Below are positions 3,291 to 22,103 of a DNA stretch of 64,000 nt, in pieces. A program made the position numbers and the translations under genes. The notes under the pieces were generated by a model. It worked only from the letters and a program-made list of their open reading frames with translations, made no database searches and was not told the DNA's origin. Position 1 is the first letter of the stretch, and each line of letters opens with the position of its first letter. Source of the stretch: Mucilaginibacter sp. PAMB04168 (GTDB taxonomy: Bacteria; Bacteroidota; Bacteroidia; Sphingobacteriales; Sphingobacteriaceae); NCBI RefSeq assembly GCF_039634365.2, contig NZ_CP155079.2:3596001-3660000 (forward strand). Reading direction: 5' to 3'.

Positions 3291-3292
3291 TT

Positions 3293-3598: not shown

Positions 3599-3840
3599 TA
3601 ATATTGGAGAAAAAATCGAGGCGGAGATCTTTTAGCGCAGCCGGGAAAGCGGCGTGGTATGATAAAAAGCGTTCAGATCACGAACAACGCTTCGGTGTTA
3701 TACCCATGATAATTACTGTAATTTACCAGAAGGCAGGGCAAATCACGCTGACCTATCTGGCCAGCAAATTGAGCAGTAAAGAGACCGGAAACTTTTAGTG
3801 GCCGCCGGGAGACGACCATGGCCACAGAGCCAAATGGCGT

Positions 3841-4131
3841 TTAAATTCCGAACAACGCCCTCAAAAACACGCCGGATAACAGTACAAAAAGGGCGGCATA
3901 AAACCACGCTGCAACGGCGACGTCGACGTGATGCTTACCATCCTGCCAGTTTTTATAGACCGATACTGCACCGCATAGTCCCAGCAAGGTAGCGATGACC
4001 AGTGCACAGTCAAATGCAGAGAAATAGGTAGAAACCAACTCCTGTCGTGCTTGCTGCATTTCAGCAATACCGGGTTGTGCAATCACATAAAACCCGGATA
4101 GCAGCAGCCCAAGAGTAACCATCATTTTCAT
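3841..4131 (-). CDS. Second DUF4134/TraE-like protein
   Basis: 96 residues with the same plan as TraE: signal sequence ending VIAQ, a helix with QQARQELVSTYF, a hydrophobic segment followed by GAVSVYKNWQDGKHHVD, and a second hydrophobic segment ending LRALFGI. The spacing, the V-Y-x-x-W-x-x-G loop and the C-terminal xxFGI/xxFGL end match TraE closely, so this is a diverged paralogue. It follows the gene at 4134 with 2 nt spacing, so it belongs to the tra operon. It may be an alternative pilin-like subunit; that role is inference. The loop is HHVD where the TraE paralogue has QDIN. Confidence 0.8.
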   Translation of the reverse strand: MKMMVTLGLLLSGFYVIAQPGIAEMQQARQELVSTYFSAFDCALVIATLLGLCGAVSVYKNWQDGKHHVDVAVAAWFYAALFVLLSGVFLRALFGI

Positions 4132-4133
4132 GG

Positions 4134-4418
4134 TCAGAAACTGACTGCCCTGATATAGTCGATGGCGTCCTCCCTGGCAAGGTTGAACGTTTGCTTCAGG
4201 CTCGTACCCCCGGAAGAAACCACCGGAGACGCCCTTATATTTCCGGACGGCTCATCTGGTACATTCTTCACCGTTTCTCCATCTTTTACAAAGGTTAATT
4301 CTCCTGTTTCATCGTCACCCAATGAACGTTTACCGGCTCTAAAATCCCAGGCAAGCAATGCGGAATAATAAGCGGTATAAATACCGAAAAGCCAGATGGC
4401 AAAATTGATCCAGTTCAT
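4134..4418 (-). CDS. Small single-TM protein of the transfer operon
   Basis: 94 residues. One N-terminal transmembrane helix (about residues 5-25, rich in aromatic residues, ending LLAWDFRAGKR) is followed by an acidic, flexible tail (GDDETGELTF, then a Ser/Pro/Gly stretch) and a final amphipathic helix. Its place between the DUF3408 protein and the TraE-like proteins, with a 4-nt overlap upstream and 2 nt downstream, is where TraD-like small proteins lie in related elements. I do not recognise a named domain. A membrane anchor or adaptor role in the mating apparatus is inferred from position only. Confidence 0.7.
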   Translation of the reverse strand: MNWINFAIWLFGIYTAYYSALLAWDFRAGKRSLGDDETGELTFVKDGETVKNVPDEPSGNIRASPVVSSGGTSLKQTFNLAREDAIDYIRAVSF

Positions 4419-4771
4419 AAATCTGTATTTTGAATATAGTGTTTAATGGTGCTTTTAATTTCCGGATGGGTATCCAGTACATGTTGGACAGCGAAGGCAA
4501 CGAACTTGGTGATATCCGTCCCCGTCGCCATTTTAAATTTGGTCAGGGTGTCTACTGTCTTCTTATCGAAACGGACGTGCACCATGTTTTTATGGAGGGC
4601 GTTGTCATAGGTGGCAATGGCCTGTATGATGTCGGGCAATCTGGGAGTTGCTTCATTCTTTAACTTGCGTACAGCGGGCGCGCGGGCTTTAGGAGGCACT
4701 TCTGTCGCTCTTGCAACCGGTTTACCCAATTCCTCGCGGATCTGATCAGCCAGTGATTTCATTTTTTCCAT
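4415..4771 (-). CDS. DUF3408 / TraB-like ribbon-helix-helix-type protein
   Basis: 118 residues. A disordered N-terminal third rich in Pro, Ala and basic residues is followed by a compact domain with VHVRFDKKTVDTLTKFKMATGTDITKFVAFAV, the strand-helix-helix pattern of DUF3408 proteins that accompany ParA in Bacteroides-type elements. The beta-strand MVHVRFD and the helices after it look like a ribbon-helix-helix DNA-binding fold. It overlaps the ParA gene by 13 nt. By analogy with ParA/ParB-like pairs it may bind element DNA or centromere-like sites and partner the ATPase, or act as a transfer-operon regulator; both are inferences. Confidence 0.8.
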   Translation of the reverse strand: MEKMKSLADQIREELGKPVARATEVPPKARAPAVRKLKNEATPRLPDIIQAIATYDNALHKNMVHVRFDKKTVDTLTKFKMATGTDITKFVAFAVQHVLDTHPEIKSTIKHYIQNTDL

Positions 4772-5385
4772 AAGCGTTCTGCAAATATTTCTTCAAACAC
4801 AGGGTAGATAACCGGGATGAGAGAGACAGGGGTATGAAAGGTGGTGATCCTCTGAAAGTCCACCCGGTCAGGAATGGGAGCGGTTATCTTGCCCAACTTT
4901 TGCAGCTGGACATTGACCTCGGTCATGATCTCAAATTTGGCATTGGCCTTGATCCGGTTAGGCACAAAGACGACTTCTACCCTGGGGTTCACTTTTTTGA
5001 GTACTACGGTAAAGAGTACCGTGGACTGGTAAGTGAATTCATCATAAGCAAATGGACAGATCACCAGGTCTGCCGATTCGAATACGGGTAATAGGCCGTC
5101 GTCATCCAGCTTACCGGGCAAGTCGATCAATAGAACATGATCTGCATTTTGATTTAAAACATGGTATACAATAGGGAAACTTTCCAGCGTCGCAGGAACG
5201 ACTTCGTAGGGTTCCTCATTTTCCAAAATTTTTGCTTTGTCAAATTTTTGGGAAATGGACTGCTGGTAATCCATATCAATAATGGACGCTTTCGATTTCC
5301 GCGCGATCGTAATGTAATTTGCCGCCAGTACGGCCAGCGTACTCTTCCCGACTCCGCCTTTCTGGTTTCCAATGATGGTAATCAT
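4759..5385 (-). CDS. ParA/MinD-family ATPase (TraA-like)
   Basis: 208 residues. The deviant Walker A is at the very start (GNQKGGVGKST, residues 6-16), followed by SIIDMDYQQS (Walker A') and DHVLLIDLPG (Walker B), the usual ParA core of about 200 residues. These proteins bind ATP and DNA and partition or position plasmids and conjugative elements; in Bacteroides elements this gene is called traA. It lies 18 nt downstream of the relaxase and overlaps the DUF3408 gene. No N-terminal HTH is present, so it is a small ParA of the plasmid type Ib/TraA class. The start is fixed by the motif position. Confidence 0.92.
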   Translation of the reverse strand: MITIIGNQKGGVGKSTLAVLAANYITIARKSKASIIDMDYQQSISQKFDKAKILENEEPYEVVPATLESFPIVYHVLNQNADHVLLIDLPGKLDDDGLLPVFESADLVICPFAYDEFTYQSTVLFTVVLKKVNPRVEVVFVPNRIKANAKFEIMTEVNVQLQKLGKITAPIPDRVDFQRITTFHTPVSLIPVIYPVFEEIFAERLWKK

Positions 5386-5403
5386 AAAATATTTAATTAT
5401 CCC

Positions 5404-6357
5404 TTAGCGGGTGTTTGTTCTGGCCTGTTTTTTACGGTGGCGGTTCCGGCCCAGGATAGCCTCATCATCAATATCATCCGCCATCCAAATCGGACCGATA
5501 TAAGCGGCGGTCTCATGACCAGATGACTCCATATTACTTAGCGGAAGTTCCCACGCACTCGTTTGCTCCGGTATTTGCGCAGAAAGGTACTTTAGCGACA
5601 ATACCTCACTCCCCTTAAAGACCTGCTTGGTGGCGTGGTCCAGGATGGTATAACCATAAGGGGCTTTCCCTTCCGCCGCATGAAATACCAATTCCACCTG
5701 GTAATGACTTTCAAGCAGTTGCCGATAACCTGCGGCATCCTTATGTGCCCATAACAAGGCTTTAAGCTCTCCTATCCTGAATTTGTCAGGCCGATATGCA
5801 GCTATATGCTTTTCCAGTTTCTGCTCATCAAAATCACTGCCCATATAACCTTTACTTTCCAGGATCAGGTAAAATTGCGCTCTGGTGCTAAAAGCGTATT
5901 GCAGGGCAAAATCGTACCCGAGGACCTTATTCAAGCTGGCCGATGCCCTTAGATATTCATAAGCACTGTTGATCTTTCTGCCGTCCTTTCCAATCCGGGT
6001 CGTCACTAAGTGCAGATGGTTGTTACTCGTGTCTTTATGAAATATAGCCAGGTAGGGTTGTTGACCGTAACCCATTTCCTCCATCCAAAGTGTTGCGATC
6101 GCTGTGAGCTGACCCTTATCGTACTCCTTTCCTTTAGCCGACAGGACTGCATGAAATTGCGCCTTTTCGATCCGCGTATTGACGGACGATACCATTTGCA
6201 GGTAATTAATAAAATCCTGCGGGCGCAGGTTTTGAAAGGCCTGCAAAGGACCAAACCCGGAAATCTTCATAAGTTCTCCTGTATTGCGGTCCACTTTATC
6301 CGTGTTATAACGTACGGCCGGAAAACCGGAAACGTTCTTAAGGATTTTAACGATCAT
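5404..6357 (-). CDS. MOBP-like relaxase/mobilisation nuclease
   Basis: 317 residues. The protein nicks DNA at oriT and leads the transferred strand. The visible signature is the metal-binding histidine motif NNHLHLVTTRIG (HxH followed by VTTR) near residues 112-123, with a preceding FHAVLSAKGKEY strand and Tyr18/Tyr candidates in the N-terminal segment for the nicking tyrosine. It resembles the MobB/relaxase proteins of Bacteroidetes mobilisable elements. The C-terminal half carries no recognisable helicase or primase domain and ends in a basic tail (RNRHRKKQARTNTR). It is downstream of the MobC-like gene across a 561-nt spacer and immediately upstream of ParA. Confidence 0.88.
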   Translation of the reverse strand: MIVKILKNVSGFPAVRYNTDKVDRNTGELMKISGFGPLQAFQNLRPQDFINYLQMVSSVNTRIEKAQFHAVLSAKGKEYDKGQLTAIATLWMEEMGYGQQPYLAIFHKDTSNNHLHLVTTRIGKDGRKINSAYEYLRASASLNKVLGYDFALQYAFSTRAQFYLILESKGYMGSDFDEQKLEKHIAAYRPDKFRIGELKALLWAHKDAAGYRQLLESHYQVELVFHAAEGKAPYGYTILDHATKQVFKGSEVLSLKYLSAQIPEQTSAWELPLSNMESSGHETAAYIGPIWMADDIDDEAILGRNRHRKKQARTNTR

Positions 6358-6918
6358 AAAATTATTCAGGCATCATCCGTTCAGGCGAACCCTATCAATC
6401 CAGGTTGTAAACTTTATGGTGGCGAAGGTATAGTGATTAAAAACCGCGCGGATAGCTATCTATCACGAGAGCCACCTATCTGCTGATCTGTCAACGCGCT
6501 ACCGGCTCATCTGATTGCCCGCTATTACCTGATTCAGGTAAACTTCTATCAGCCTATCCTTAGCGCTAAAGAGCTGTTGAGCTGTTTAGCGCTGTATCAA
6601 GGAATCATTGGTTCTTTAAATCCGTATAAACAGGTATTCTCCTACCCGTATATCCAAATAGCAGCACCATTACATAGCTGTGTGTCGGAGTAGCTTCATA
6701 ATGAGAAACATGGTGAACGCGTTATCCATCCATCAAAATAGCCGTATAACGCCATCCACCGTGAACAGTGTAACCTGCTCACCCTATATCCTGGAAACGC
6801 CATAAATCAATGACCATATAAGAATATATCCGGGTAACAATAGAACCAGCTAACCACCTGCCTGAGTAACTGAATAGCTGATGATCCATCTATTGTCGGT
6901 TATCAGAAAGTAACGAAA
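6358..6918. other. 561-nt non-coding spacer between relaxase and MobC-like gene
   Basis: No frame of convincing length in either strand. It is rich in short inverted repeats: TTACCTGA-t-TCAGGTAA at 6525-6541 and AGCGCTAAA / TTTAGCGCT at 6562-6593, plus many scattered GGATA and TATCC words. Such spacing inside a mob operon is unusual; it may hold a second relaxase-binding site, a plasmid-type regulatory region or a decayed gene. Confidence 0.6.
6562..6593. repeat. 9-bp perfect inverted repeat with duplicated loop
   Basis: Arms AGCGCTAAA (6562-6570) and TTTAGCGCT (6585-6593) enclose a 14-nt loop made of two copies of GAGCTG. Each arm also contains the palindrome AGCGCT. The structure lies about 200 nt upstream of the relaxase start on the coding strand, a place where relaxosome binding sites or an operator would be expected. 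Confidence 0.55.
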
Positions 6919-7329
6919 TCATCGGCCCGCGAGCCGGATTACCTTTCGAAAAACAATCTCCAGGCGCTGCTGGAGGTCCAGATACTGCTCAAAAAGCTGG
7001 TTAAATTTTTCTGCTACATAATAGGGGACCTGCCCTTGCAATTTCATGATATTGGCATGCCTGGCCAACTGGTTGATATTATTGCCGACCCGGGCCATCT
7101 CCGCCCCCAACGCATCCATCTGGCTGATGAGCTCCCTGGTATTAAGGAGCATCCGCTCAGAACCGTTGAGCAACCGCACCCTGACTAATTCGGTTTTGGA
7201 AACACCCAGCGTTCGTTCCATAGTCAAAACCAGGTCGTATTCGGTTTGGGTAAATCTGGCATCAATTTTCCTGGTGCGCTTCTCGCGCTCCAGTTTGGGC
7301 CTTTCAGCTAACTTTCTTTGATCAGCCAT
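6919..7329 (-). CDS. MobC-like relaxosome accessory protein
   Basis: 136 residues. A basic N-terminal part (KLEREKRTRKIDARFTQTEYD) forms the strand and first helix of a ribbon-helix-helix DNA-binding domain, and the segment ALGAEMARVGNNINQLARHAN is the well-conserved MobC (relaxosome) core, followed by a long C-terminal helix (FNQLFEQYLDLQQRLEIVFRKV). MobC proteins bind oriT and help the relaxase melt and nick it. The gene is the first of the mob genes and starts about 30 nt from the multi-hairpin oriT candidate, which fits that job well. Confidence 0.85.
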   Translation of the reverse strand: MADQRKLAERPKLEREKRTRKIDARFTQTEYDLVLTMERTLGVSKTELVRVRLLNGSERMLLNTRELISQMDALGAEMARVGNNINQLARHANIMKLQGQVPYYVAEKFNQLFEQYLDLQQRLEIVFRKVIRLAGR

Positions 7330-7358
7330 TAGAAAAATGAGTTGCGAATTTTTTATAT

Positions 7359-7438
7359 CCTCCCCGGAGGGGCAAGATTCTTTTGGGCAGGATAAAATTC
7401 GGGAAGCGAATTTTTGTCCGACAAAAAGACATCTTGCC
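7359..7438. other. Candidate origin of transfer (nested inverted repeats)
   Basis: In 80 nt there are four inverted repeats: CCTCC/GGAGG around 7359-7370, an outer pair GGCAAGAT (7371-7378) with ATCTTGCC (7431-7438), AAATTCG (7395-7401) with CGAATTT (7407-7413), and TTTTTGTC (7411-7418) with GACAAAAA (7420-7427). The block sits directly upstream of the MobC-like gene and downstream of the primase-like gene, the normal place for oriT. No nick site can be read from sequence alone. Confidence 0.6.
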
Positions 7439-7560
7439 TTTCCAAAAACAAGGTGGTTTTAGTATTCAATTTAACTGTTAGACTGCACTGACTTGAAGGT
7501 TCGCAGGCTCGAAGGCGATAGGATATCCAAGGAAAACCTAAACCCAAAAAGCCGCAACGC

Positions 7561-8520
7561 CTACCGGTGAATCTGCACCTGTGATTTTGAATAACAATCT
7601 GTGGCCTGCCTTTGTTCAACGACAACCAGGTTGAGTGCGTCCGTTATTTTATCATTATAATCATTAAAACCGCTGTAAGTGCCCGACCGGTCGGTAGCGT
7701 AAGGCAATGATTTGATAAATTCCCGGGACGCCAGCAGCCCAGGGTTATCCCGATCAAAATAGATATCCAGCGTTGAAAATGCTTTAGCCTTTCCAATGCC
7801 TGCATTCAGTCTGGAAAGCGAATTGAGTACAATGACACTATGGTCCGCCAGGGGATGCTCCAATTTCCAGCTGAGGTAATTGATAAAGCCTTCAAAGACT
7901 ACTGCTTTTTTTTCGTGACCGGAAATAAAGGTAATAGCCTTGCTGCCCAGGCAACCTTTAAAGTATTTGTTGCGGACCTCCCAGCCGGACATCTCATTTT
8001 GCCACCCGGCAGCAAAAAAATGTTTTCGTATGCCTTTCGAGTCTTCTACGTAATAGTAAACTTCGGATAGACACTTTTTACCCACATCCCAGACGCCACG
8101 GCTTTTTAAGTAACCGGTTATAGCCGGATGGGTACCGATCGGCTTAATCTGTTCAACCACATAATTAGGGATTTGAACTGCACTTCGGGGACGGCTCCCG
8201 GTAAGGGCAGCGGAATGCGGTTCAACAGGCTTGATGGAAAGTACTTGTTGAATTTTGTGTACGACCTCCTTGAACCCTAGGTCTTTCCAATAGGCCAAGC
8301 CAAAGTCAATGATGTTACCACCTTTACCGGTACCATGATCAAACCAGACACCGAGGTCGTCATTAACACAGAAGGAAGGTACACGATCACCTTCCCTGAG
8401 CATGCTGTTATACATATTTTCCTTACCACGGTGAGGGATGGGTTCGTATCCCAGATGACGAAGCAGGGTTACTAAAGAAGCTTGCTGCTTGAGCTCCTGT
8501 GCATTTAATAGATTGGACAT
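7561..8520 (-). CDS. Primase-like TOPRIM protein of mobile elements
   Basis: 319 residues. The N-terminal part (Y-N-S-M-L-R-E-x-D-R-V-P-S-F-x-V and WFDHGTGKGGNIIDF, residues about 38-80) matches the zinc-finger-like domain of Bacteroidetes mobile-element primases, but without the usual CHC2 cysteines. The C-terminal half is a TOPRIM fold with the acidic motifs KAVVFEGFINYLS (near residue 210) and LDIYFDRDNPG (DxD, near residue 252). It probably makes primers for the transferred strand or for element replication in the recipient. It is the first gene of the mob region, separated from mobC by the oriT candidate. The family is usually 300-320 residues, so it looks intact. Confidence 0.85.
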   Translation of the reverse strand: MSNLLNAQELKQQASLVTLLRHLGYEPIPHRGKENMYNSMLREGDRVPSFCVNDDLGVWFDHGTGKGGNIIDFGLAYWKDLGFKEVVHKIQQVLSIKPVEPHSAALTGSRPRSAVQIPNYVVEQIKPIGTHPAITGYLKSRGVWDVGKKCLSEVYYYVEDSKGIRKHFFAAGWQNEMSGWEVRNKYFKGCLGSKAITFISGHEKKAVVFEGFINYLSWKLEHPLADHSVIVLNSLSRLNAGIGKAKAFSTLDIYFDRDNPGLLASREFIKSLPYATDRSGTYSGFNDYNDKITDALNLVVVEQRQATDCYSKSQVQIHR

Positions 8521-9338
8521 ATTCGTATATTTAAATTAATACTCGTTGATTGCAGGCTGTATTGCAGTTTTCCAGAGACCCGATTCTGCTGCCAGGACAA
8601 TAAGAAGCGCGATATCCTGACCAGCACCTGACCCGCTATTGAGGCGTATGGCGTCATATCGCTCATACTCCGTTGCCTTTCCGGAGTGAGATCATGCTTG
8701 GTGCTGTTTCGTGTTCAACGCTTTTTTTCCGCCAAGCGGGCTCATTGAAGTCAGGGTCTATTTTCAGCACTGATCCAGCGTAGTTGAGGAATTCCATCTA
8801 GAAACTCAGCGCTAAAATTCGTCCGGGTCGAAAATTTGGCATTGTCAGTACCGGCAGCGGGTAACGATCCCGATCAATTCGCTTCTGCCGGTTTATAATT
8901 CGGGACTAATCACGTCGGCATCTACATGCCGGGCTCTCGCCTGCCAATGCGTTCTCGGTTCGATCATCGTCTCCCCTTCGCAAAATTTCCTGGTGCTAAC
9001 AGGATAATGCTTCGTCCCCCTACGTCAAAGAACTCAGGCTATTCAGCCTTACCGATCTGCCAGGGGCAGGTCAGTCTACCGTTACTGGTTGCAGCGACTG
9101 CTTGCAACTTCGTCCGGTCATTTTCCTCTGATAAACATTAATGAGCCCGTTGCTAATCCAGCAATCTGCAGCTCCGCCGCCATCAAACCGGTAAGCATTG
9201 GTCTTTGAATAGCCGTCCCCAACAAGCCCGGAAACACCTCTAACCGCTTTAGGGCCATGTGATGTTCCAAGACTCAGCAAAGCAGCTATTCCTTGATGCT
9301 CATTGAGATCAAAGTTGGGGTAATTGGAAAAAGGTTTG

Positions 9339-9362
9339 TCGGTAGTTCATAGGTAGTACCGA
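9339..9362. repeat. 24-bp palindromic repeat, copy 1
   Basis: The sequence has TCGGTA at its left end and GTAGTACCGA at its right end, giving TCGGTA/TACCGA arms. A near-identical copy with the same arm spacing lies 221 nt away at 9560. The repeated dyad upstream of no obvious gene, close to rteC, suggests binding sites for a regulator or recombination directionality factor. Confidence 0.6.
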
Positions 9363-9559
9363 TGAAAAAATATTTCAAAAAAGAGAAACTTGAACTTTAA
9401 ACCACAGTAATCAGACGAATAGCGCTTGGCCTGTAATCCCAAGGGGGGTTGAGTCGATTAAAAAACCTTATGAGCATTCTCATAGTGGCTTTTACGCCCG
9501 GATGTCCCGTTCCCTAGAATGACTAAAAAGCGGGGTTTGAGGTCATAAAAAGATGCTTC

Positions 9560-9583
9560 TCGGTATTACGTCGGTAGTACCGA
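9560..9583. repeat. 24-bp palindromic repeat, copy 2
   Basis: Same plan as the copy at 9339: TCGGTA, T in the eighth position, six variable bases, then GTAGTACCGA. Conservation of the two ends with a diverged centre is the usual picture for a protein-binding dyad rather than for chance similarity. Confidence 0.6.
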
Positions 9584-9626
9584 AAGGTCAAAATTGCCGC
9601 TATGCTTAACGCCATAGCCAGCGGGT

Positions 9627-9651
9627 AAAAAAAAAGGCGGTAGAACCGCCT
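9627..9651 (-). terminator. Rho-independent terminator of rteC
   Basis: On the minus strand, AGGCGG-ttcta-CCGCCT forms a 6-bp GC-rich stem with a 5-nt loop followed by a run of nine T. It lies 47 nt after the rteC stop. Confidence 0.85.
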
Positions 9652-9697
9652 GTTATGGATGTGATAAAAAAACTTCTTTGACTACTTGGATAGGACT

Positions 9698-10537
9698 TCA
9701 ATGGGTGTCTTGTTCGAGTTTCTTCCTTAAAGCATCGCTCATTTGATCGAGGTATTTTGTTGTGCTTATTCTCTTTCTCCTTTCCATTTCCGTGAACCTC
9801 TTTTGAACATTACCTAAATTAACGTCCAGCTGGCTTTCCAGCCAGCGGACGATCTGACTTAAAGTAGCATTTCCATGATTCAATTGCCCGGTAAGCCAGA
9901 TACCATAGGCAACCTCAATGATATTGATCACGTCACCGGTCCAACGCAGTTTTTCTGTCTCATCACTTAAGATGTGGAGGGTGTTTCCGTGCTCAGGCTT
10001 TAACCTCTCAATTTCTCTCAGAATAAATAATTGAATCCGTTCTAAGCCTATGAACTTAGAATATAAGCAGGATACGGGAGTAGAAAAATCACTCTCGACA
10101 TCGGGTATTTCAGGTATGGGCAAAGCAAGACTCCCTGATCCTCTCACAAAAAAAAGGTGATCCAGTTCATCGAACCCGTTCTTATAGTACTGGTAGTAGA
10201 AAGCATTTCGCCTGAACACACTTTGGATAGAAACCAATTCTTCGTCCAGGTATTTCACCTGCGCCTTAGCGGTTCCCGTAGGCTTGTAATTTAAGATACT
10301 GAATCGCAAGCCTTCTTCGATCCGGCAGGCTTCAATCTGCGGTTTGACTTCCTTGAAAATAGAGATTTCATCTTGCTCGCCGACCTGATCATGGTCGAGA
10401 AAGTTTTTTAAATCAGATAAAGCTTTATCTGTTATTTTGACGGCGCCATTAAACCTGCCCAGCGGGGATTCAATAGAGGCATTTTCGGAAAGGTTCTCTC
10501 TTAGCTCATTCAACAACTTTTCAAATGGTGTATTCAT
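9698..10537 (-). CDS. rteC: RteC-family regulator of excision/transfer
   Basis: 279 residues. The C-terminal part contains LRWTGDVINIIEVAYGIW, then NHGNATLSQIVRWLE and NVQKRFTEMERRKRISTTKYLDQM, which is the conserved RteC core (K/R-WTGxxxxLVE-Y, NHGxA, R-S-RKxxRTKFLD). In CTnDOT, RteC activates the excision operon; the C-terminal winged-helix part binds DNA. Here it is a single gene without rteA/rteB two-component partners in the window. It has its own terminator and is separated by a gap from the peptide locus to the right, so it likely marks the right border of the transfer module. Confidence 0.92.
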   Translation of the reverse strand: MNTPFEKLLNELRENLSENASIESPLGRFNGAVKITDKALSDLKNFLDHDQVGEQDEISIFKEVKPQIEACRIEEGLRFSILNYKPTGTAKAQVKYLDEELVSIQSVFRRNAFYYQYYKNGFDELDHLFFVRGSGSLALPIPEIPDVESDFSTPVSCLYSKFIGLERIQLFILREIERLKPEHGNTLHILSDETEKLRWTGDVINIIEVAYGIWLTGQLNHGNATLSQIVRWLESQLDVNLGNVQKRFTEMERRKRISTTKYLDQMSDALRKKLEQDTH

Positions 10538-10655: not shown

Positions 10656-12068
10656 TTACTTATTGCTCAACGTTGAGGTTAAAGCGGTTTGGAACTGTAC
10701 AGCAGCATCTGCTCCTTCCGCAATAACAGCCACTGCGTTGCATATTTTAGGCAGAAGCGTGCTGCATAAATAGCTAAGGATGACCACCAGCATGAATGTG
10801 GAATAGTCTATGCTTTCTACTTGCATATGCCATAAGGCGATGGTGAAAACCAGGATCACATTTATCGTTCCCAATATTTCATTCGTCAGTCCCTTGATGC
10901 CGGATTTTACAGCCAATAGCCGGGTCTGATTGATATTCAGATCGTGATTGGTCTGATGAAACTTAAGGTTCAGGCCTAAAGGGCTATTCAAACCGTTCTT
11001 ATGTAATTGATCAATATCCTTTAGTAGCAGATTTTCCGTAGCTGCAGACAGGTGATTCAGATGAGCGAAGGAATAGCTGTTGTGCGCCAGGCCGCGGTAA
11101 GTAACAGACCCGATGACAAGTAAAAAAATGAAATTGATCAAAGCGGCCCAGGGAAGAAGATAGGCAACCGCAGATAGGAAGAAAATCAACAAAGCCCCCT
11201 CCGACAGAACCGTTGAAATTATTTCACAAGCCGCCTGCTGTATTTTTTGAATATCCCTGAAATTATTTCTTAGGCTATAAGGTGTAATTCTTGGATGATT
11301 GCCGGGCCGGCATTGAAACAACAGCCTCATATAAGCTGACATCAGTTTTTGATTGACGGACATATTTAATCTGATCATGAGGTATTGCCGCAAGAAGGCA
11401 CAAAGGCTTTTAGATACGCTGATCAGGAAAAGCAGGATGACAACAGCTACAATGACATTAGTTTTGAAGAAGTAGCTATTGTTCATCCCTTTTTGCAAAA
11501 CCCACGACATCGCTAAACCAAAAGATGCAGTAGCCAGGGTGAGCAGAGGCACGATGATCCAAAAGCCGGCGGGAAACGCTCGGAGCATGAAGAGCCAGTG
11601 CCAGGGTGAACGGCGAAAGGCGCTCAGGTCCATCTTCAGGTGGTCAAAATATAAAGCGGCTTTGCTAACCCAAATTAGGTCCAATTCATTTTCTGTAAGG
11701 TAATAAACCTGTTTTGCCGGGTCGGCCATCAGGTACCGGTAGGAATTGCCGGACATCTTGCTTCCATAACAAACCTGGTAGTGATATAGCCCATGTTCAG
11801 TTTGCGTATGCAGAATGCACGGCCTGTCGAGTTTCCGCAGAAAGTCGAGTTCCATTTCGACAGATTGTGCTGAATAACCACTGGCAGATGCGATAGATTG
11901 CATTTCGAGTAGGGACAGGCCACCCTCTTCCACTCGAATATCATGGAGATGAGTATACAATTGAGATTGTCCGGAGAAATTGAAAATCATGCCCAGACAG
12001 GCAAGTCCGCAGCTTTCCTCGCTTAATTGCCTGATAAAGGACCGCTTGATCAAATGAATATTATACAT
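10656..12068 (-). CDS. C39 peptidase fused to ABC-exporter membrane domain, no ATPase domain
   Basis: 470 residues. The N-terminal C39 peptidase domain has the catalytic Cys20 in QLSEESCGLACLGM, His96 in HYQVCYG and Asp116 in ADPAK. These enzymes cut leader peptides after a double glycine. From about residue 160 there are some six transmembrane helices of the ABC type 1 exporter fold (first one around WIIVPLLTLATASFGLAMSW). Family members of the ComA/LagD type are about 700-730 residues and end with an ATP-binding domain; this protein stops right after the last helices. I searched the 118 nt downstream and found no frameshifted continuation. It is 31 nt downstream of the membrane protein gene at 12100. 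Processing the double-glycine peptide encoded at 13492 is the natural inference. Confidence 0.85.
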   Translation of the reverse strand: MYNIHLIKRSFIRQLSEESCGLACLGMIFNFSGQSQLYTHLHDIRVEEGGLSLLEMQSIASASGYSAQSVEMELDFLRKLDRPCILHTQTEHGLYHYQVCYGSKMSGNSYRYLMADPAKQVYYLTENELDLIWVSKAALYFDHLKMDLSAFRRSPWHWLFMLRAFPAGFWIIVPLLTLATASFGLAMSWVLQKGMNNSYFFKTNVIVAVVILLFLISVSKSLCAFLRQYLMIRLNMSVNQKLMSAYMRLLFQCRPGNHPRITPYSLRNNFRDIQKIQQAACEIISTVLSEGALLIFFLSAVAYLLPWAALINFIFLLVIGSVTYRGLAHNSYSFAHLNHLSAATENLLLKDIDQLHKNGLNSPLGLNLKFHQTNHDLNINQTRLLAVKSGIKGLTNEILGTINVILVFTIALWHMQVESIDYSTFMLVVILSYLCSTLLPKICNAVAVIAEGADAAVQFQTALTSTLSNK

Positions 12069-12099: not shown

Positions 12100-12741
12100 T
12101 TATCCATGACTAGGGAAATACATGATTGCGCAGAAGCAAACGACGACCATCCAGATCAATAAGGCAGGCAGGTAACTGGCCAAAACGAGCCGCAGTGAGC
12201 GCCGATAATCCAAATGGGTAAGTTGGCTGATCCCGAAAGCCAATAAGAACCAGTAGGACACCTCAAATACATTCAAGGTCTGCAACGGATAGTACCAGTC
12301 AGCTGGTACCGCGGGAAAAAGCGAGAGCGCGGACAGCAGATACAACCGGTGCCAATCCAAAAGCGTTCCATGGGGATAGTAATGACGAAACCACCAGATT
12401 TTAACAACCGCCGCCAGCAAGAATATGGCTTCACAAATCGTCACCATATGGAGGATCACTCCATATGGGATCAGGTGGTCGGCAATGTAGAGTGCGGTGT
12501 ACAGAATCAATGCAATCAGGCATAATTTGAACAACAGGTAGAAGCCGGTCACTATATATATCCATTTTTGAAGACCCGCAAACAGCAGAATATCCTGGCC
12601 CGGCAGTACCGCCAGCGGGTGGCCGTTTTCAGCGAAAAAATTATTTGTAAGGATTGTCCTGTTGGACGCACTAATGATGGCCAGCGTGAGCCCCAAAATT
12701 GCGCCCAGGCTAATTAAATTGGACTTTTTAATGAAATTCAT
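12100..12741 (-). CDS. Polytopic membrane protein of the peptide locus
   Basis: 213 residues with about six hydrophobic segments (near residues 10-25, 50-75, 75-100, 105-125, 135-150, 160-180 and 185-208). I do not recognise a family; the general look is that of Yip1-like or small integral-membrane proteins. It is cotranscribed with the C39 peptidase/permease gene 31 nt downstream. Immunity protein, exporter subunit or membrane scaffold are all possible roles. The C-terminus is short and cytoplasmic or periplasmic (MYFPSHG). Confidence 0.7.
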   Translation of the reverse strand: MNFIKKSNLISLGAILGLTLAIISASNRTILTNNFFAENGHPLAVLPGQDILLFAGLQKWIYIVTGFYLLFKLCLIALILYTALYIADHLIPYGVILHMVTICEAIFLLAAVVKIWWFRHYYPHGTLLDWHRLYLLSALSLFPAVPADWYYPLQTLNVFEVSYWFLLAFGISQLTHLDYRRSLRLVLASYLPALLIWMVVVCFCAIMYFPSHG

Positions 12742-12845
12742 TGCCTAAAAATTTTAGGTAAATTTCAGCTGGCAACAGGTCAAACACAATTACTCAGAGT
12801 TGTAAAATACAGTTTCAGGTTATTGGATTATATGAATTTTTTGCT

Positions 12846-13457
12846 ATGATATCGACTATTATGAAGACCTTCCTGTCAGCCCCCATATGTTATGGGCTCA
12901 TGGCCATCATCACGCTGGTAAGTTTATGTGCTTTAAAAGATCAGAAATTGTTCTTCCATTTGGTGTTGCACCCCAACGGAGTTATAGAGTCGAAAGAATA
13001 CTATCGGTTAATAACAGGCGATCTGGTGCATAATGACCTGATTCATTTCCTGATTAACCAAATCATGATGTTTACTTTCGGTGCCAGGCTGGAAAATCAT
13101 TTACTGCTGACCACCAACCAAGGCAGCCTAAGTTTTCTGATTATCTATCTGAGCAGCTGCCTGAGCGCAAGCCTGTTTACCACGACCCGCCATTGGCGGG
13201 AACCGGATTATTCAAATGCCGGCACGTCAGGAAGCATTATCGGATGCATGCTGGGATATGTCATGGTTCAACCGGACATCATCGCATTTTATCTGCCGGT
13301 CGTTGGAGGGATCAAAAACATCTATGGAGGGCTGATCTGTATTATCGCTTATATGATTTACCAGTTCAGATCTGACCGGGCAAATATCAATCATGAAGTT
13401 CATTTTTTCGGCGGCTTAGGCGGGATCTTAGCAACCTGGATATTAACTGGTAATTAA
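12846..13457 (+). CDS. Rhomboid-family intramembrane serine protease
   Basis: 203 residues, six predicted transmembrane segments. The catalytic motif is GTSG at 126-129 (Ser128), with the partner histidine in NHEVHFFGGLGG (His186), and the HxxxN element of rhomboids in HFLINQ (His67, Asn71). YRLITGDLVHNDLIHFLINQ is a strong rhomboid match. The enzyme cleaves membrane-anchored substrates. It is on the plus strand, nested between minus-strand genes of the peptide locus, so it has its own promoter. A role in peptide maturation or immunity is a guess from context; a housekeeping-type rhomboid carried as cargo is the alternative. Confidence 0.88.
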   Translation: MISTIMKTFLSAPICYGLMAIITLVSLCALKDQKLFFHLVLHPNGVIESKEYYRLITGDLVHNDLIHFLINQIMMFTFGARLENHLLLTTNQGSLSFLIIYLSSCLSASLFTTTRHWREPDYSNAGTSGSIIGCMLGYVMVQPDIIAFYLPVVGGIKNIYGGLICIIAYMIYQFRSDRANINHEVHFFGGLGGILATWILTGN

Positions 13458-13485
13458 AGAAAGAACCGGGAGTCAATCCCGGTTC
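13452..13485 (-). terminator. Terminator after the double-glycine peptide gene
   Basis: GAACCGGGA (13463-13471) and TCCCGGTTC (13477-13485) form a perfect 9-bp stem with a 5-nt loop. On the minus strand it is followed by TTTCTTTAATT. It begins 6 nt after the peptide stop codon, and may also stop transcription from the rhomboid gene on the other strand. Confidence 0.75.
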
Positions 13486-13491
13486 CTAAGC

Positions 13492-13665
13492 TTACCAGAT
13501 AGCCAGACAGGAAGGTCCTGTGGCAGCAGCGACCGCACCGATCACGGCGCCCGCACCACCAAATAACCCGCCCACGGTAGCAGAAAAGACGATGTTATAG
13601 CCGCAACTAGCCGCTGTTGTACCGCCTTTAAGTTGTCTCGCTCTTTCATCCGAGAGATTCTTCAT
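13492..13665 (-). CDS. Double-glycine-leader peptide, bacteriocin-like precursor
   Basis: A 57-residue frame below the usual size cut-off. The first 15 residues, MKNLSDERARQLKGG, are a typical class II leader (charged, helical, with Leu at -12 and Leu at -4 before the Gly-Gly). The predicted 42-residue core starts TTAASCGYN, has a glycine-rich hydrophobic middle with several GxxxG motifs (VGGLFGGAGAVIG), and ends GPSCLAIW. Two cysteines, near the two ends of the core, could form a disulphide or thioether ring. A C39 peptidase gene lies on the same strand and a strong terminator follows at once. The product is probably a secreted antimicrobial or signalling peptide. The frame and leader are read directly; activity is inference. 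Confidence 0.8.
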   Translation of the reverse strand: MKNLSDERARQLKGGTTAASCGYNIVFSATVGGLFGGAGAVIGAVAAATGPSCLAIW

Positions 13666-13730
13666 ATTATCAATTTAAGTTTCTTCCCACCATTGGGAAT
13701 TGATCTAAAGATCCGCCGCGCATCGCTGGT

Positions 13731-13756
13731 TAACTATTACTTCAAATAGTAAGTTA
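13731..13756. promoter_or_regulatory. Candidate operator between peptide gene and XRE regulator
   Basis: Overlapping dyads TAACT...AGTTA (13731-13756), ACTATT/AATAGT (13733-13750) and TTACT/AGTAA (13737-13752) lie in the 128-nt divergent intergenic region, 38 nt from the regulator start and 66 nt from the peptide start. A binding site for the XRE protein controlling both genes is the simplest reading. Confidence 0.4.
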
Positions 13757-13793
13757 GTACTTTTACCTTTAGGATAAATCGAAATAAAGTAGT

Positions 13794-14141
13794 ATGCAAA
13801 ACATTGGAGACAGAATCAGGGCCGCAAGACTGGAAAAAAACTACACGCAGTTTTACATGGCCTTTATGTTAGATATTTCGCAAGCATCTTATTCCAAGAT
13901 TGAGCGAAATGAGACCAAGCTGACCTTGCCGCGTATTTATGAAATTGCAGAAATACTGGAAATATCGCCGTTCGTCCTCATGCCCAAACCTAAATATGGG
14001 GTAGGAATCGATTACCATTTCGTCTGGCGAACTTGGTTGAAGCTTCGTAAATTCTGGACGCATGGGATAGCCAGAAAAAAGGAGGAAGCTGTCAGAATGA
14101 ATATTCTTTACAGGGACATATCCAACACTAATGAAGTGTAA
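13794..14141 (+). CDS. XRE-family transcriptional regulator
   Basis: 115 residues. The HTH occupies residues 4-60 (IGDRIRAARLEKNYTQFYMAFMLDISQASYSKIERNETKLTLPRIYEIAEIL); recognition helix around QASYSKIER. The C-terminal 55 residues are basic and do not match a ligand-binding domain. It is transcribed away from the double-glycine peptide gene and faces the HTH and kinase genes, so it is the likely local regulator of the peptide locus. Autoregulation through the dyad at 13731 is inferred. Confidence 0.88.
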   Translation: MQNIGDRIRAARLEKNYTQFYMAFMLDISQASYSKIERNETKLTLPRIYEIAEILEISPFVLMPKPKYGVGIDYHFVWRTWLKLRKFWTHGIARKKEEAVRMNILYRDISNTNEV

Positions 14142-14220: not shown

Positions 14221-14427
14221 ATGGATTTTTTATCTTACGAAAAGCGGCTGAACTACATCCTGGAATTAATGAGTAAGGGCCGTTTCGGTTCTTTGGAAGC
14301 CGCCGCCTTGCGTTTTGGTTGCAGTTCGCGCACGGTCAAGCGCATGCTTAATGTGCTCAGGGAAAAGGGTCACGACATCCGGTACAACCGTCAGCAAAAA
14401 AAATATTTCATAAAAAAAGATCAGTGA
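14221..14427 (+). CDS. Small helix-turn-helix protein
   Basis: 68 residues consisting of a single winged-helix/HTH_11-like domain: EKRLNYILELMSKGRFGSLEAAALRFGCSSRTVKRMLNVLREKGHDI, with a DeoR-like recognition helix (SSRTVKRML) and a basic C-terminal wing (NRQQKKYFIKK). There is no effector domain, so it is probably a simple DNA-binding factor. It lies 51 nt upstream of the kinase gene on the same strand, and similar small HTH proteins commonly precede operons in Bacteroidetes accessory loci. Confidence 0.8.
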   Translation: MDFLSYEKRLNYILELMSKGRFGSLEAAALRFGCSSRTVKRMLNVLREKGHDIRYNRQQKKYFIKKDQ

Positions 14428-14478: not shown

Positions 14479-15861
14479 ATGAACAGGACATTTCACTTCC
14501 AACCAATGAGCTATCATGCACTGCTGAAAGCTGAGCAAGTTTCTTTCCAGGAGGATGCGCGGTATTTAACGGCCGGCACCATCAAACAGACCTGCGGATT
14601 CGTCCTGTTCATCAGTTGTCGTGCACTTGACACACCAGAGATGCTCAAACAATGCCTTCCTGTAACCCGGCAAACCGAATGCCCGTTTATCCTGGTTAAA
14701 AATCAAAATCTACAATACCAATTGAACTCCGGCTCATTTGGTAATGAGATCGCAGGCAAAGTGCTATCGTTATACCCGGCTGACCGGTCTACGCTTTCGA
14801 TACTGATCAAAGAACTGGTCGGTCTTACAACTCAGCTTAAAGGGCCGCAGATTATCAACGCACAGCGTTTAAGCCAGGTGGTCTACATTCAAAAAGCGGA
14901 AAAGCATACCGACGGTTTTCGATACAGCATGCCTAAACCGAGAGACATACCCTACAGCATCCCACTAATTTACCTGAAGAAGGAAAAGCCGAACCGTCTT
15001 CTAGGTAATTACTACCTGCCTGTTCAATTACTGGGTGCGACACCGAAAGGGAAAATCTTTAAGGCGATCAATCTGAGAAAGCTCAAATTCGAGTGGTGTT
15101 TGATTAAACAAGGTAATGCCGTTGCCTTGGACGACCAATTCGACCGGGATATGAAGGATCGTCTGAAATGGCAAAAAGCGGTATTGGAGAGGATAAAAGA
15201 CAAGGTCTATACACCGGGCTATCTTGACTATTTTGAAAAAGCGGAAAACACTTATCTGGTCATTGACTACGTGGAAGGCAAGTCCTTAGGGCAAGAGGTG
15301 CGCAACGCAATGAAGGGTACAACGGTATGGAAAGAATTTCCTATACATAAGAAAGAGCAGTTACTGAACTGGTATCAGCAAGCTGTCGGCTTAGTAGACT
15401 CGATCCATCAGGAAGGGTTTGTGCACAGAGACATCACCGACAGTAATTTTATGATCGGGAACGATGGCCGTTTATGCATCATCGATTTCGAGCTTAGCTA
15501 CAGCCTCCGTGAACAGCAGCCTGACCCTCCCTATTTGCTTGGCACATTCGGTTATGCCTCACCTGAACAGTTGCATTATCAGTATCCGGACATCCGGGAC
15601 GATGTCTATTCCTTAGGTGCCTTGCTCAGTTTCGTTTTGACGGGTTGTCAACCCTATGAGTTTTTGAACACACCGCTGACAGTCGTCCGATCAAAAATTG
15701 TTCGGCTTACCGGAAGTGACCTGCTGGCGACATTGGTATGCCGATGTATTCAACCCACGAGAAAAGCCCGGGCCAGCTTATCAGCTATTAAAGAGGCGAT
15801 CACAATCTATTTAGAAAATTTAGCACAGCGAAAATATGAAACGTCTACCATGGCTGTATGA
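14479..15861 (+). CDS. LanKC-like protein: lyase-like N-domain plus Ser/Thr kinase, no cyclase
   Basis: 460 residues. The C-terminal half is a protein kinase: WCLIKQ with the ATP lysine near 208, VIDYVEG hinge, HRDITDSNF near 315, IIDFE near 333 (DFE in place of DFG, as in LanKC kinases), GTFGYASPEQ and DDVYSLG. Residues about 45-180 follow the N-terminal domain of class III lanthipeptide synthetases: a strand-helix repeat with PFILVKN, NSGSFGNEIAGKVLSLYPAD and LVGLTTQLKGPQIIN-QRLS. The residues I would expect for phospho-Ser/Thr elimination (K-x-H in the first strand and K in PFKF) read VLF and PFIL, so the lyase looks inactive. The LanC-like cyclase domain is missing. It overlaps the MauE-like gene by 26 nt. 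It may phosphorylate a peptide or act as a regulatory kinase. Confidence 0.75.
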   Translation: MNRTFHFQPMSYHALLKAEQVSFQEDARYLTAGTIKQTCGFVLFISCRALDTPEMLKQCLPVTRQTECPFILVKNQNLQYQLNSGSFGNEIAGKVLSLYPADRSTLSILIKELVGLTTQLKGPQIINAQRLSQVVYIQKAEKHTDGFRYSMPKPRDIPYSIPLIYLKKEKPNRLLGNYYLPVQLLGATPKGKIFKAINLRKLKFEWCLIKQGNAVALDDQFDRDMKDRLKWQKAVLERIKDKVYTPGYLDYFEKAENTYLVIDYVEGKSLGQEVRNAMKGTTVWKEFPIHKKEQLLNWYQQAVGLVDSIHQEGFVHRDITDSNFMIGNDGRLCIIDFELSYSLREQQPDPPYLLGTFGYASPEQLHYQYPDIRDDVYSLGALLSFVLTGCQPYEFLNTPLTVVRSKIVRLTGSDLLATLVCRCIQPTRKARASLSAIKEAITIYLENLAQRKYETSTMAV

Positions 15862-16279
15862 GGTATTCACCTATCTGCTTGCGTTACTGTTCTTATTCAC
15901 AGCGCTCAGTAAGTTAGTGGATTTCCAAAAGTTCGTCAAGCAAATGAATAACCAGGTTTTCCCTAAAGCTGTTTCCGCTGCTTTGGTCATCCTGGTGCCA
16001 CTTATAGAACTGATCGCCACAGCTTTGCTGGTGCGGATCAAAACCAGGATGACAGGTTTATGGCTTTCCCTGGCACTGATGTCCGCATTCACTGTTTACG
16101 TTGGCTTGGTTACTTTAAGGGTTTTTCCGAGGGTACCCTGCTCGTGTGCCGGTGTCTTCGAAAAAATGTCGTGGGGCCAGCATTTACTCCTCAATATGAT
16201 GTTCACCCTGATAGCTTTCGCGGCTATCCTCCTAGGCAGAATTCAAGACCGGGTCAGCACCCCAGGTGTTACCCAATAA
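15836..16279 (+). CDS. MauE/DoxX-like redox-associated membrane protein
   Basis: 147 residues with four transmembrane helices. It follows the MauE/DoxX pattern of Bacteroidetes: Y-LLALLFLFTALSKLVDFQKF, PLIELIATALL near residue 60, and the cysteine motif PCSCAGVFEKMSWGQHLLLN near residue 100 (Cys-Ser-Cys). These proteins are thought to pass electrons or help form disulphides in exported proteins. It is translated from within the end of the kinase gene (26-nt overlap) and is followed 74 nt later by a DUF6520 peptide, a pair that recurs in Sphingobacteriaceae. It could assist oxidation of cysteine-containing peptides in this locus. Confidence 0.85.
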   Translation: MKRLPWLYEVFTYLLALLFLFTALSKLVDFQKFVKQMNNQVFPKAVSAALVILVPLIELIATALLVRIKTRMTGLWLSLALMSAFTVYVGLVTLRVFPRVPCSCAGVFEKMSWGQHLLLNMMFTLIAFAAILLGRIQDRVSTPGVTQ

Positions 16280-16353: not shown

Positions 16354-16650
16354 ATGTTTAAAAACAACAAGAGCCTTTTACAAAGGGCTCGCATCGCCAT
16401 GTTAGCGATCGTAACCATTTTAGGTATCAGTGGTGCATTTGCCATGAAAGCGCCCGAGCACAAACAAGCTTCCACTTATGGAGTAGTGCGTGCAACCGTT
16501 GGCGGCTGGATCGTAACCTCAGCAGCCGGTGATTGTGACCTTAACCTTCCGCAAACCTGTAAGGTCGAGAGCGAACAAGCGCCGGATGAAAACGGTTTCA
16601 TCCCTAACGCTGCAGTAATGGAAACTCAACCGGGCGCATTTATTCAATAA
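16354..16650 (+). CDS. DUF6520-type small secreted protein
   Basis: 98 residues. N-terminal signal-type hydrophobic segment (ARIAMLAIVTILGISGAFAMKAP), then a Thr/Ser/Gly-rich stretch and two cysteines in GDCDLNLPQTCKVESEQ, the arrangement of DUF6520 family members (about 85-100 residues). The function of the family is unknown; it regularly accompanies MauE-like and TlpA-like genes, which suggests a redox-matured exported peptide. Here it ends the kinase-MauE unit and is followed by a strong terminator at 16655. It could be the substrate of the locus, though it lacks a double-glycine leader. Confidence 0.8.
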   Translation: MFKNNKSLLQRARIAMLAIVTILGISGAFAMKAPEHKQASTYGVVRATVGGWIVTSAAGDCDLNLPQTCKVESEQAPDENGFIPNAAVMETQPGAFIQ

Positions 16651-21125: not shown

Positions 21126-22103
21126 CTACGGCCTCACCGGAAAGTAATGCTGACGGTAATCTTCCGCCGCACGATGAATCCGCTCTCGGGCTTGCATTAC
21201 CCTGTTAGATTCGGTAATCTTACGTTCATAATCGTTCAATGCACTGTCCAACCGGTTTAACTGTACGGTGAGTTCCTGCCGAAGTTGAGCCTGTTCGGCC
21301 GGCATATTCATGATGCCTTCCAATGACTGAGCCAGATTATAAAGAGAATTCATGAATTCATTGACCGGTCCGTGATAATCTATTACGTCATTCTTCATCT
21401 GTTCAAATATTGCCTCCTGAACTGCTCTTTGATCCAGTTGTCCGCTTTTTGCAATTTCCATCAAAACGGCATAGGTGTACCAAGTAGCAATTGCCGGTAA
21501 CTGAGCGCCAGGGTGTGTTTGTATTGCGAAACTTAATATATCTCTAACCCGATCCGCAATGGCTACAGTAAATCCAGCTACTTGACCAAGGTGAAGTGCG
21601 CCAGCAGTTGTGTGCCAAGTGGCATCCTGCAACAGTTCATTTTTGATGTCCAATATATCCTGCCTAGCTGAAATACTTCGGGCCCGTTCTTGTAAAGCTT
21701 CGCGATAGGTCGCATCAATACCAGCAAGACGTAATTGATCAAAAGCCGCAACGTAAAGGTCGTATTGCGCTCTTTGCGCAGCTAACTGGGCAGCCTGTTC
21801 CCTCGCACGCCGTTCTTCTGGTGTCTCTGGGGCGGGCTGTCGAGGAATCTGCGGCGGACGCCCGGGTTGCGGCTGCGGATGATAACCTCCGTATTCAGGC
21901 GGTTGTGGCTGGGGTTGCGGTTGCGGTTGTGGCTGGGGTTGCGGTTGTGGCTGGGGTTGCGGCTGCGGCTGCGGCTGGGGTTGCGGCTGCGGCTGGGGCT
22001 GGGGTTGGGGTTGTGGTTGAGGCTGTGACGGCTGCCTTGGAAACCATGGTCCACCCAAAAATCGGATTGCCTGAATGGTCCATGTGTTAAAAGTTAAATT
22101 CAT
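21126..22103 (-). CDS. Pro-Gln-repeat protein, C-terminal helical domain
   Basis: 325 residues. After a short N-terminus (ends GGPWFPRQPS) comes an almost pure Pro-Gln alternation from about residue 27 to 68, then a Pro-rich linker (YHPQPQPGRPPQIPRQPAPE) and about 240 residues of helical sequence without a known domain (RAREQAAQLAAQRAQYDLYVAAFDQLRLAG; later AQLRQELTVQLNRLDSALNDYERK). No signal peptide. The first 20 residues could be a short leader, since PQ-type spacers often join domains that cross an envelope. It overlaps the acetyltransferase gene by 4 nt. Possible structural or secreted protein; function unknown. Confidence 0.75.
   Translation of the reverse strand: MNLTFNTWTIQAIRFLGGPWFPRQPSQPQPQPQPQPQPQPQPQPQPQPQPQPQPQPQPQPQPQPQPQPPEYGGYHPQPQPGRPPQIPRQPAPETPEERRAREQAAQLAAQRAQYDLYVAAFDQLRLAGIDATYREALQERARSISARQDILDIKNELLQDATWHTTAGALHLGQVAGFTVAIADRVRDILSFAIQTHPGAQLPAIATWYTYAVLMEIAKSGQLDQRAVQEAIFEQMKNDVIDYHGPVNEFMNSLYNLAQSLEGIMNMPAEQAQLRQELTVQLNRLDSALNDYERKITESNRVMQARERIHRAAEDYRQHYFPVRP
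21900..22025. repeat. Hexanucleotide repeat encoding Pro-Gln
   Basis: About 20 tandem copies of a 6-nt unit (GGTTGC/GGCTGC/GGTTGT/GGCTGG on the plus strand), arranged in longer 12- and 18-nt periods. Because the unit is a multiple of three, copy changes would alter length but keep the frame. Confidence 0.9.

Follow-up and report, generated by a model that had tools for sequence, protein, structure and literature searches.

In the window, by which we mean the whole 64,000-nucleotide stretch of Mucilaginibacter sp. PAMB04168 DNA that was analysed, a conserved gene for a short peptide with a Gly-Gly (GG) leader belongs to a recurrent module that encodes, in order, a C39 protein, a five-transmembrane (5-TM) protein termed mem213, a rhomboid protease, the peptide and an XRE regulator (Table 1). 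Gene content indicates that in Mucilaginibacter this module is carried by a conjugative element. We lean, with modest confidence, toward reading it as a bacteroidetocin-like class II peptide module, resident in this genus on a conjugative element and derived in the way its product would be matured or exported. Relative to known systems, the rhomboid, the missing ATPase domain of the C39 protein and the mobile-element home were not found described.

Table 1. Features of the peptide module and its surroundings, with positions numbered from the first nucleotide of the window.
Feature	Position	Strand	Remarks
rteC, conjugative-element regulator	9698..10537	-	PF09357, 179 bits; beside the cassette in 22/22 same-genus loci
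C39 peptidase with ABC membrane domain, no nucleotide-binding domain	10656..12068	-	470 aa; PF03412, PF00664
5-TM membrane protein (mem213)	12100..12741	-	AlphaFold model pLDDT 86, five long helices; in 28/28 cassette loci
Shared-motif copy between 5-TM gene and divergent rhomboid gene	12800..12818	-	
Rhomboid intramembrane serine protease	12846..13457	+	203 aa; PF01694, 62.9 bits; convergent with peptide gene
Terminator-like hairpin between convergent peptide and rhomboid genes	13461..13487	-	11-pair stem, T-rich tail
GG-leader peptide gene	13492..13665	-	57 aa; leader 13621-13665; 42-aa mature part 13495-13620; conserved frame
5'-UTR hairpin	13684..13699	-	5-bp stem, 6-nt loop; 19-34 nt before ATG; covariation
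Conserved operator/promoter-like block, peptide/XRE intergenic region	13729..13779		limits by eye; motif shared with 12800-12818
XRE-family regulator, divergent from peptide gene	13794..14141	+	PF01381, 46.6 bits; beside peptide in 27/28 loci
68-aa HTH protein (hth68), conserved neighbour	14221..14427	+	all 22 same-genus loci; mean pairwise identity 0.66
MauE-type membrane protein, possible thiol/disulfide partner	15836..16279	+	PF07291, 103.5 bits; in 25/27 stretches searched

A first-pass annotation had placed a 57-residue peptide gene at these same coordinates without stating its strand, which is minus. The translation, MKNLSDERARQLKGG / TTAASCGYNIVFSATVGGLFGGAGAVIGAVAAATGPSCLAIW, divides into a 15-residue leader ending in GG and a 42-residue remainder in which Gly and Ala abound; the cysteines are residues 21 and 53 of the precursor. 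The leader, glycine-rich core and two cysteines that the annotation had named are thus plain in the sequence. Because matches were recovered in 10 of 100 relatives and in 25 of 399 family genomes, the latter from 5 of 25 genera (own genome counted in both searches), the frame is not a chance one. Named matches comprise 12 Mucilaginibacter records, one from Daejeonella and two from metagenome-assembled Bacteroidia/Bacteroidetes. A peptide profile matched 17 of 300 order genomes, all of them already among the family-genome matches, and found no match beyond the own genome in 296 phylum genomes; plasmid searches with the peptide and with mem213 gave no match.

The alignment covers 23 of 28 peptides (L043, L044, L048, L053 and L061 are missing) and contains 15 invariant columns, namely M1, C21, G32, G33, F35, G36, G37, G39, G43, A47, A48, G50, P51, C53 and L54, which take in the two cysteines as well as the majority of positions in a GG(L/F)FGG turn and a GPxCL end. 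The end of the leader varies in five loci (L016, L045, L047, L051 and L052), where it reads AG or has a single or shifted G. Conservation of frame and leader in related loci, on which the annotation had made its proposal depend, was found for both in the 23 aligned peptides. Within the core (residues 21-57, 20 loci), difference rates at codon positions 1, 2 and 3 are 0.20, 0.14 and 0.65, and pN/pS is 0.23 (190 pairs). These values indicate that the 57-residue frame is real and under purifying selection. That it is instead a chance open frame over a regulatory region, never translated, has its small size alone to speak for it and is refuted by conservation, since the codon-position pattern, the low pN/pS and invariant residues that hold down to 42% identity all stand against it; we consider this explanation negligible.

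Mean pairwise identity of the peptide across 20 same-genus loci is 0.67 (leader 0.57, linker 0.20, core 0.74). The corresponding same-genus values for its neighbours are 0.66 for hth68, 0.53 for XRE, 0.43 each for mem213, rhomboid and rteC, 0.39 for MauE and 0.28 for C39, with fewer pairs behind the rhomboid and XRE figures. The core thus appears conserved above its putative exporter, which in our judgement is atypical of an arms-race weapon. Pfam gave a weak match of the peptide to Bacteriocin_IIc (PF10439; 18.2 bits, below the 27.1 cut-off), a family matched by 4 of the 23 aligned members at E up to 0.1; stray weak matches among the same members were to DUF6861 (three), MccV (one) and Bacteroid_pep (one). 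The structure model of the peptide, of low confidence (pLDDT 57), only suggests a leader helix, a helix, a GG break and another helix.

The module was followed through 28 loci, consisting of the window, 26 further stretches and L061, a 6-kb contig, and mem213 is present in every one. A C39 gene is found in 26 (none in L053, none seen in the short contig L061), and XRE adjoins the peptide in all except L019. The rhomboid gene is intact in 26 of the 28. The exceptions are L037, where none was found, and L011, whose copy is frameshifted. This copy lies at L011:8830-9439, where the rest of the cassette, peptide included, looks intact. The C39 peptidase/permease, membrane protein and divergent XRE regulator that had been placed around the peptide are all there; that picture was right in outline and overlooked the rhomboid gene and the missing ATPase domain of the C39 protein. 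As a separate observation, L053 carries a run of three Gly-rich peptides with GG leaders and paired cysteines (L053:7594-9111). Next to them are mem213, a rhomboid and a gene that looks thioredoxin-like, its CxxC noted by eye, in a genome, G135, without a C39 match.

The C39 protein had been taken for an exporter, and its protease and membrane domains agree with this, but it has no nucleotide-binding domain (NBD). The catalytic residues Q14, C20, H96 and D116 are invariant in 24 of 24 aligned rows, drawn from 26 C39 proteins, and are kept in all 22 aligned NBD-less proteins. The domain is missing from 24 of the 26 C39 genes, that is from the window and 23 of 25 others, whereas L051 and L052 keep the ATPase. 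A pattern scan together with an NBD profile built from ten full-length relatives, the latter run on six-frame translations of the 28 loci with the whole 64-kb window included, found the domain in L051 and L052 only, and not in the window or the 25 other cassette loci. A separate ATPase was not found in the stretch covered. The protein resembles peptidase-containing ABC transporters (PCATs), which export bacteriocins, in its N-terminal C39 peptidase with intact catalytic residues and its ABC membrane domain, and differs from them in stopping before the NBD.

Among the 25 host genomes searched for C39 proteins, that of the window gave this C39 protein as its only match, and G034, G178, G295, G426, G423 and G100 likewise have a single one; 17 of the 25 hosts have two to nine C39 proteins, many of them full-length, and G135 has none. 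A helper full-length C39 exporter was therefore not found in at least seven genomes, where an unlinked ATPase could still serve. A scan of genome contigs with the C39 protein, by exact short peptides, gave 19 pattern matches and no relative, a result not to be read as absence. The ratio of membrane-domain to protease-domain identity is 0.63 in 20 NBD-less rows versus 0.85 (12 rows) and 0.89 (10 rows) in full-length proteins, a weak indication, in sets that differ in overall divergence, that lack of the NBD goes with a faster drift of the membrane domain in relation to the protease domain. A C39 tree of 36 rows sets 20 same-genus NBD-less proteins apart (92/89), with L047 and L048 falling elsewhere; loci L135-L142 gave no row. 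Because its branches are very long, its root is a midpoint root and L047 and L048 lie elsewhere, the tree fits one or several losses of the ATPase alike. L179 and L194, considered as further NBD-less C39 genes, were rejected, being split genes with the NBD in the next open reading frame, unlike the cassette.

No Pfam family was found for mem213 (Yip1 is touched by one of 21 members at E 0.02, the alignment covering 21 of 28 proteins), and nothing convincing emerged from fold searches (best Foldseek E 3.7; best Z 5.7), which does not by itself establish a new fold. Its profile matched 20 of 296 genomes at the level of the phylum and 13 of 151 at that of the family, own genome counted in both. 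From these searches we collected 20 mem213 loci outside the cassette set, namely 17 of 21 non-own places from the phylum search and three from the family search. A C39 gene is present in twelve, each of which also carries a GG-type short open reading frame with cysteines, as judged by script and then by eye; ten of these C39 genes are full-length (704-737 residues), and the two in L179 and L194 are split. No rhomboid was found in any of the 20. The mem213 family thus often accompanies GG peptides in Bacteroidota, and it is not confined to peptide modules, because in the remaining eight loci both a C39 gene and a plausible GG peptide are lacking.

The rhomboid gene is placed between the peptide and the C39 operon. 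Because Gly126, Ser128, His186 and Asn71 are invariant in the 22 aligned rows (of 26 intact rhomboids; L043, L044, L051 and L061 are missing), the protein should, on sequence grounds, be an active intramembrane protease. It is like other rhomboid proteases in its domain match, GxS serine, catalytic His and conserved Asn, and unlike them in being encoded beside a short GG-leader peptide with which it co-varies; the best NCBIfam model is that of rhombosortase, TIGR03902, at 31.9 bits versus a cut-off of 84. Across 17 loci, and controlled for rteC, peptide distances follow those of the rhomboid (partial r 0.52, p 0.0002) and of XRE (0.48, p 0.002), and do not follow those of C39 (0.02), mem213 (-0.06), hth68 (0.16) and MauE (0.07). 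The correlation could come from physical linkage of the three adjacent genes. To our knowledge, bacterial rhomboid proteases have had few natural substrates assigned to them. The peptide, short and highly conserved, is a candidate substrate that lies beside its likely protease and co-varies with it, and the pair is therefore directly testable.

Intramembrane CAAX-type proteases serve as immunity proteins for class II bacteriocins. The present arrangement is similar in that an intramembrane protease is encoded with a putative class II bacteriocin, and different in that it is a rhomboid serine protease rather than a CAAX metalloprotease. By this analogy we conjecture that the rhomboid may be an immunity factor.

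Upstream of the peptide, the alignment reveals a short hairpin in the 5' UTR, a block that was chosen by eye. Over 26 rows (25 distinct), 99.2% of 125 cells are paired and 5 of 5 pairs have changed on both sides; the covariation score was reached by 0 of 500 shuffles, and sliding the partner by 1-3 columns lowers pairing to 61-70%. Left out of this count were L053, where there is no such hairpin, and L061, which has a similar 17-nt hairpin. In the own genome the pattern occurs exactly here only, with one further place at three mismatches. The case for the hairpin rests on covariation because the window's 43-nt 5' UTR, folded alone, is only weakly better than shuffles (z -1.4).

Beyond the other end of the gene, the strong terminator that had been described as following the peptide at once is borne out as a stem of -17.5 kcal/mol, with 0 of 200 shuffles as low, but terminator-like sites in the region (2) are not in excess of shuffles (1.5). 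G+C-rich hairpins occupy the equivalent place in most related loci, as judged by eye. The two divergent intergenic regions share a 19-base motif, which, trained on the rhomboid/mem213 region from a seed picked there by eye and applied to 21 of 28 loci, gave 14.5 in the peptide/XRE region versus 4.8 in mononucleotide shuffles and 1.8 in coding controls; it is present at p up to 0.05 in 19 of the 21. The near-duplicates L043 and L044 were left out of the motif test, as were L019, L051, L052, L053 and L061. A sigma-70 scan was uninformative (3 found versus 2.9 in shuffles). Bacteroidota promoters differ from the sigma-70 type.

The surroundings are those of a mobile element. A TraG-type ATPase, a relaxase, a NikA/MobC-like protein, a ParA-like ATPase and a primase-like gene lie at 602-8520 of the window, and with rteC the span 602-10537 holds parts typical of Bacteroidota conjugative elements (PF19044, PF03432, PF21983/PF05713 and PF09357). 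The primase-like gene has a DnaG zinc ribbon at 21.1 bits, below the 24.9 cut-off, and its family is represented in 91 of 149 genus genomes. Of the 22 same-genus cassettes, 20 (all but L012 and L046) also have genes of the primase-like, mobilisation, relaxase or ParA type nearby. No rteC was detected with the module in L047, L048, L051, L052 and L053, which are outside the genus, or in the short contig L061. Related elements also exist without the cassette: in 32 such loci, which were drawn from the higher-scoring places among those listed for the primase-like family, lie away from peptide matches and so show existence, not frequency, the C39, mem213, rhomboid and peptide genes were found in none and rteC in five. 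Two of these cassette-free stretches, L115 and L131, are truncated by contig ends, and another of the 32, L129, belongs to the window's own genome.

The closest known systems are the bacteroidetocins. According to Coyne et al. 2019 (PMC6671954), a bacteroidetocin region encodes a 5-TM protein, the peptide, in most cases a thiol oxidoreductase, and a C39 ABC transporter, with GG leaders of 15-16 residues and mature peptides of 42-48 residues; bacteroidetocins A and B have 15 + 42 residues and four cysteines. The same paper states that deletion of the 5-TM, peptide or oxidoreductase gene weakens the toxin and that neither the 5-TM protein nor the oxidoreductase confers protection. Bacteroidetocins act on BamA (PMC8546649) and are characterised by killing of Bacteroidales through it. 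The module in the window has in common with these systems a 15-residue GG leader, a 42-residue mature part, at least two cysteines, a 5-TM protein, a C39 protein, a possible thiol enzyme nearby (the putative MauE type) and a Bacteroidota host. It is unlike them in its two cysteines, where A and B have four, its very Gly/Ala-rich core, its ATPase-less exporter, the rhomboid and XRE neighbours and the conjugative-element home. The putative kinship of mem213 with the bacteroidetocin 5-TM protein is drawn from its five long helices and from the frequent company of GG peptides, in 12 of 20 loci. Because the ATPase-bearing exporter is absent and the likeness rests on layout rather than sequence, we do not file the peptide as a bacteroidetocin.

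The first-pass annotation had called this a kind of peptide rarely described in the family. Bacteroidetocins are reported in PMC6671954 from four classes of Bacteroidetes, and the general kind is therefore already known in the phylum; what was not found described is the combination of rhomboid, missing ATPase and mobile-element home. The module did not appear in the literature searched (Bacteroidota GG-leader bacteriocins, rhomboids, and rteC/pheromone), although the output of genome-wide mining, for example by IIBacFinder (PMC12648078), may include the peptide, and the word rhomboid did not occur in the accessible part of a paper on Bacteroidales RiPP clusters (PMC10352776). If the preferred reading holds, it would extend bacteroidetocin-like systems to Sphingobacteriaceae and to mobile elements, and an ATPase-less peptide exporter would raise the question of how GG peptides mature or move without a motor.

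Under the bacteroidetocin-like reading, XRE would control both divergent intergenic regions. The C39 domain would remove the leader by cutting behind G15 on the cytoplasmic side of the membrane, with the 5-TM protein perhaps helping, and the 42-residue product would close a C21-C53 disulfide, aided by a thiol enzyme such as MauE. Because no ATPase is attached, passage through the inner membrane would have to depend on an unlinked ATPase, the proton-motive force or the 5-TM protein. The glycine-rich helices of the product might then enter membranes and harm competitors, and cleavage of the peptide inside the membrane by the rhomboid could provide self-protection or a second maturation step. Several findings weigh against this reading. 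The peptide core is conserved (0.74) beyond what is usual for a weapon, export is unexplained without an ATPase, and the peptide is intact in both L037 and L011, where the rhomboid is missing and frameshifted, respectively. No immunity gene was recognisable. The two cysteines in place of the four of bacteroidetocins A and B, the eight mem213 loci that lack a C39 gene and GG peptide, and the possible origin of the peptide-rhomboid-XRE correlation in linkage count on the same side.

In a rival reading the peptide is not exported at all. The NBD-less C39 protein would be only a membrane-tethered protease, and the hairpin would stay in the inner membrane of the host, where the rhomboid would tune or destroy it as part of a membrane-stress signal or of an addiction or exclusion device of the element. 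The lack of an NBD in 24 of 26 C39 genes, the sole C39 match in the window's genome and in six further hosts of 25, the faster relative drift of the NBD-less membrane domain (0.63 versus 0.85 and 0.89, in sets differing in divergence), the highly conserved core and the co-variation of rhomboid and peptide are all consistent with it. However, ten mem213 relatives stand beside a full exporter, the rhomboid-bearing L051 and L052 keep theirs, further C39 proteins, many of them full-length, are present in 17 of the 25 hosts, and an unlinked ATPase may serve; on this evidence we think the peptide unlikely to be retained. Slightly less doubtful, and still offered tentatively, is a two-protease membrane system without ABC export, in which a disulfide-closed Gly-rich hairpin, once freed by a C39 protein kept only as a tethered leader peptidase, would lie in the inner membrane and be cut there by a dedicated rhomboid, making the module a weapon, exclusion or addiction device of the conjugative element with the rhomboid as immunity. 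The peptide might also act as a secreted signal by which transfer of the element is controlled and which XRE or RteC would read. The association with rteC in 22 of 22 same-genus loci and with other conjugation genes in 20 of 22, the conserved core and the co-variation of XRE with the peptide would fit such a role, but six loci (L047, L048, L051, L052, L053 and L061) have the cassette without a detected rteC, and the element does not need the cassette, because related elements without it exist, 5 of 32 with rteC. XRE, moreover, has HTH domains only in Pfam and no sensor domain, and a 42-residue hydrophobic peptide is in our judgement an unlikely ligand; we regard a transfer signal as quite improbable. 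Of the two roles proposed in the first-pass annotation, bacteriocin or pheromone, the sequence speaks for a GG-leader class II bacteriocin-like peptide as the best reading, and the pheromone is left without positive evidence.

Several neighbouring genes drew our attention in their own right. The conservation of hth68 nearly equals that of the peptide. A protein encoded at 14479-15861 combines RamC_N and kinase domains, resembling class III/IV lanthionine synthetases without the LanC cyclase, and full-length versions with LanC adjoin MauE genes in L038 and L129. The latter locus is a second related element in the window's genome, near 1.6 Mb, which lacks the cassette and has the full LanKC-like gene and MauE. 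Beside MauE in the window, 16354-16650 encodes a 98-residue exported-looking protein with a sub-threshold DUF6520 match, and similar proteins occur in L012 and L015. Farther along, an open reading frame at 21126-22103 has a long Pro-Gln repeat near its N-terminus.
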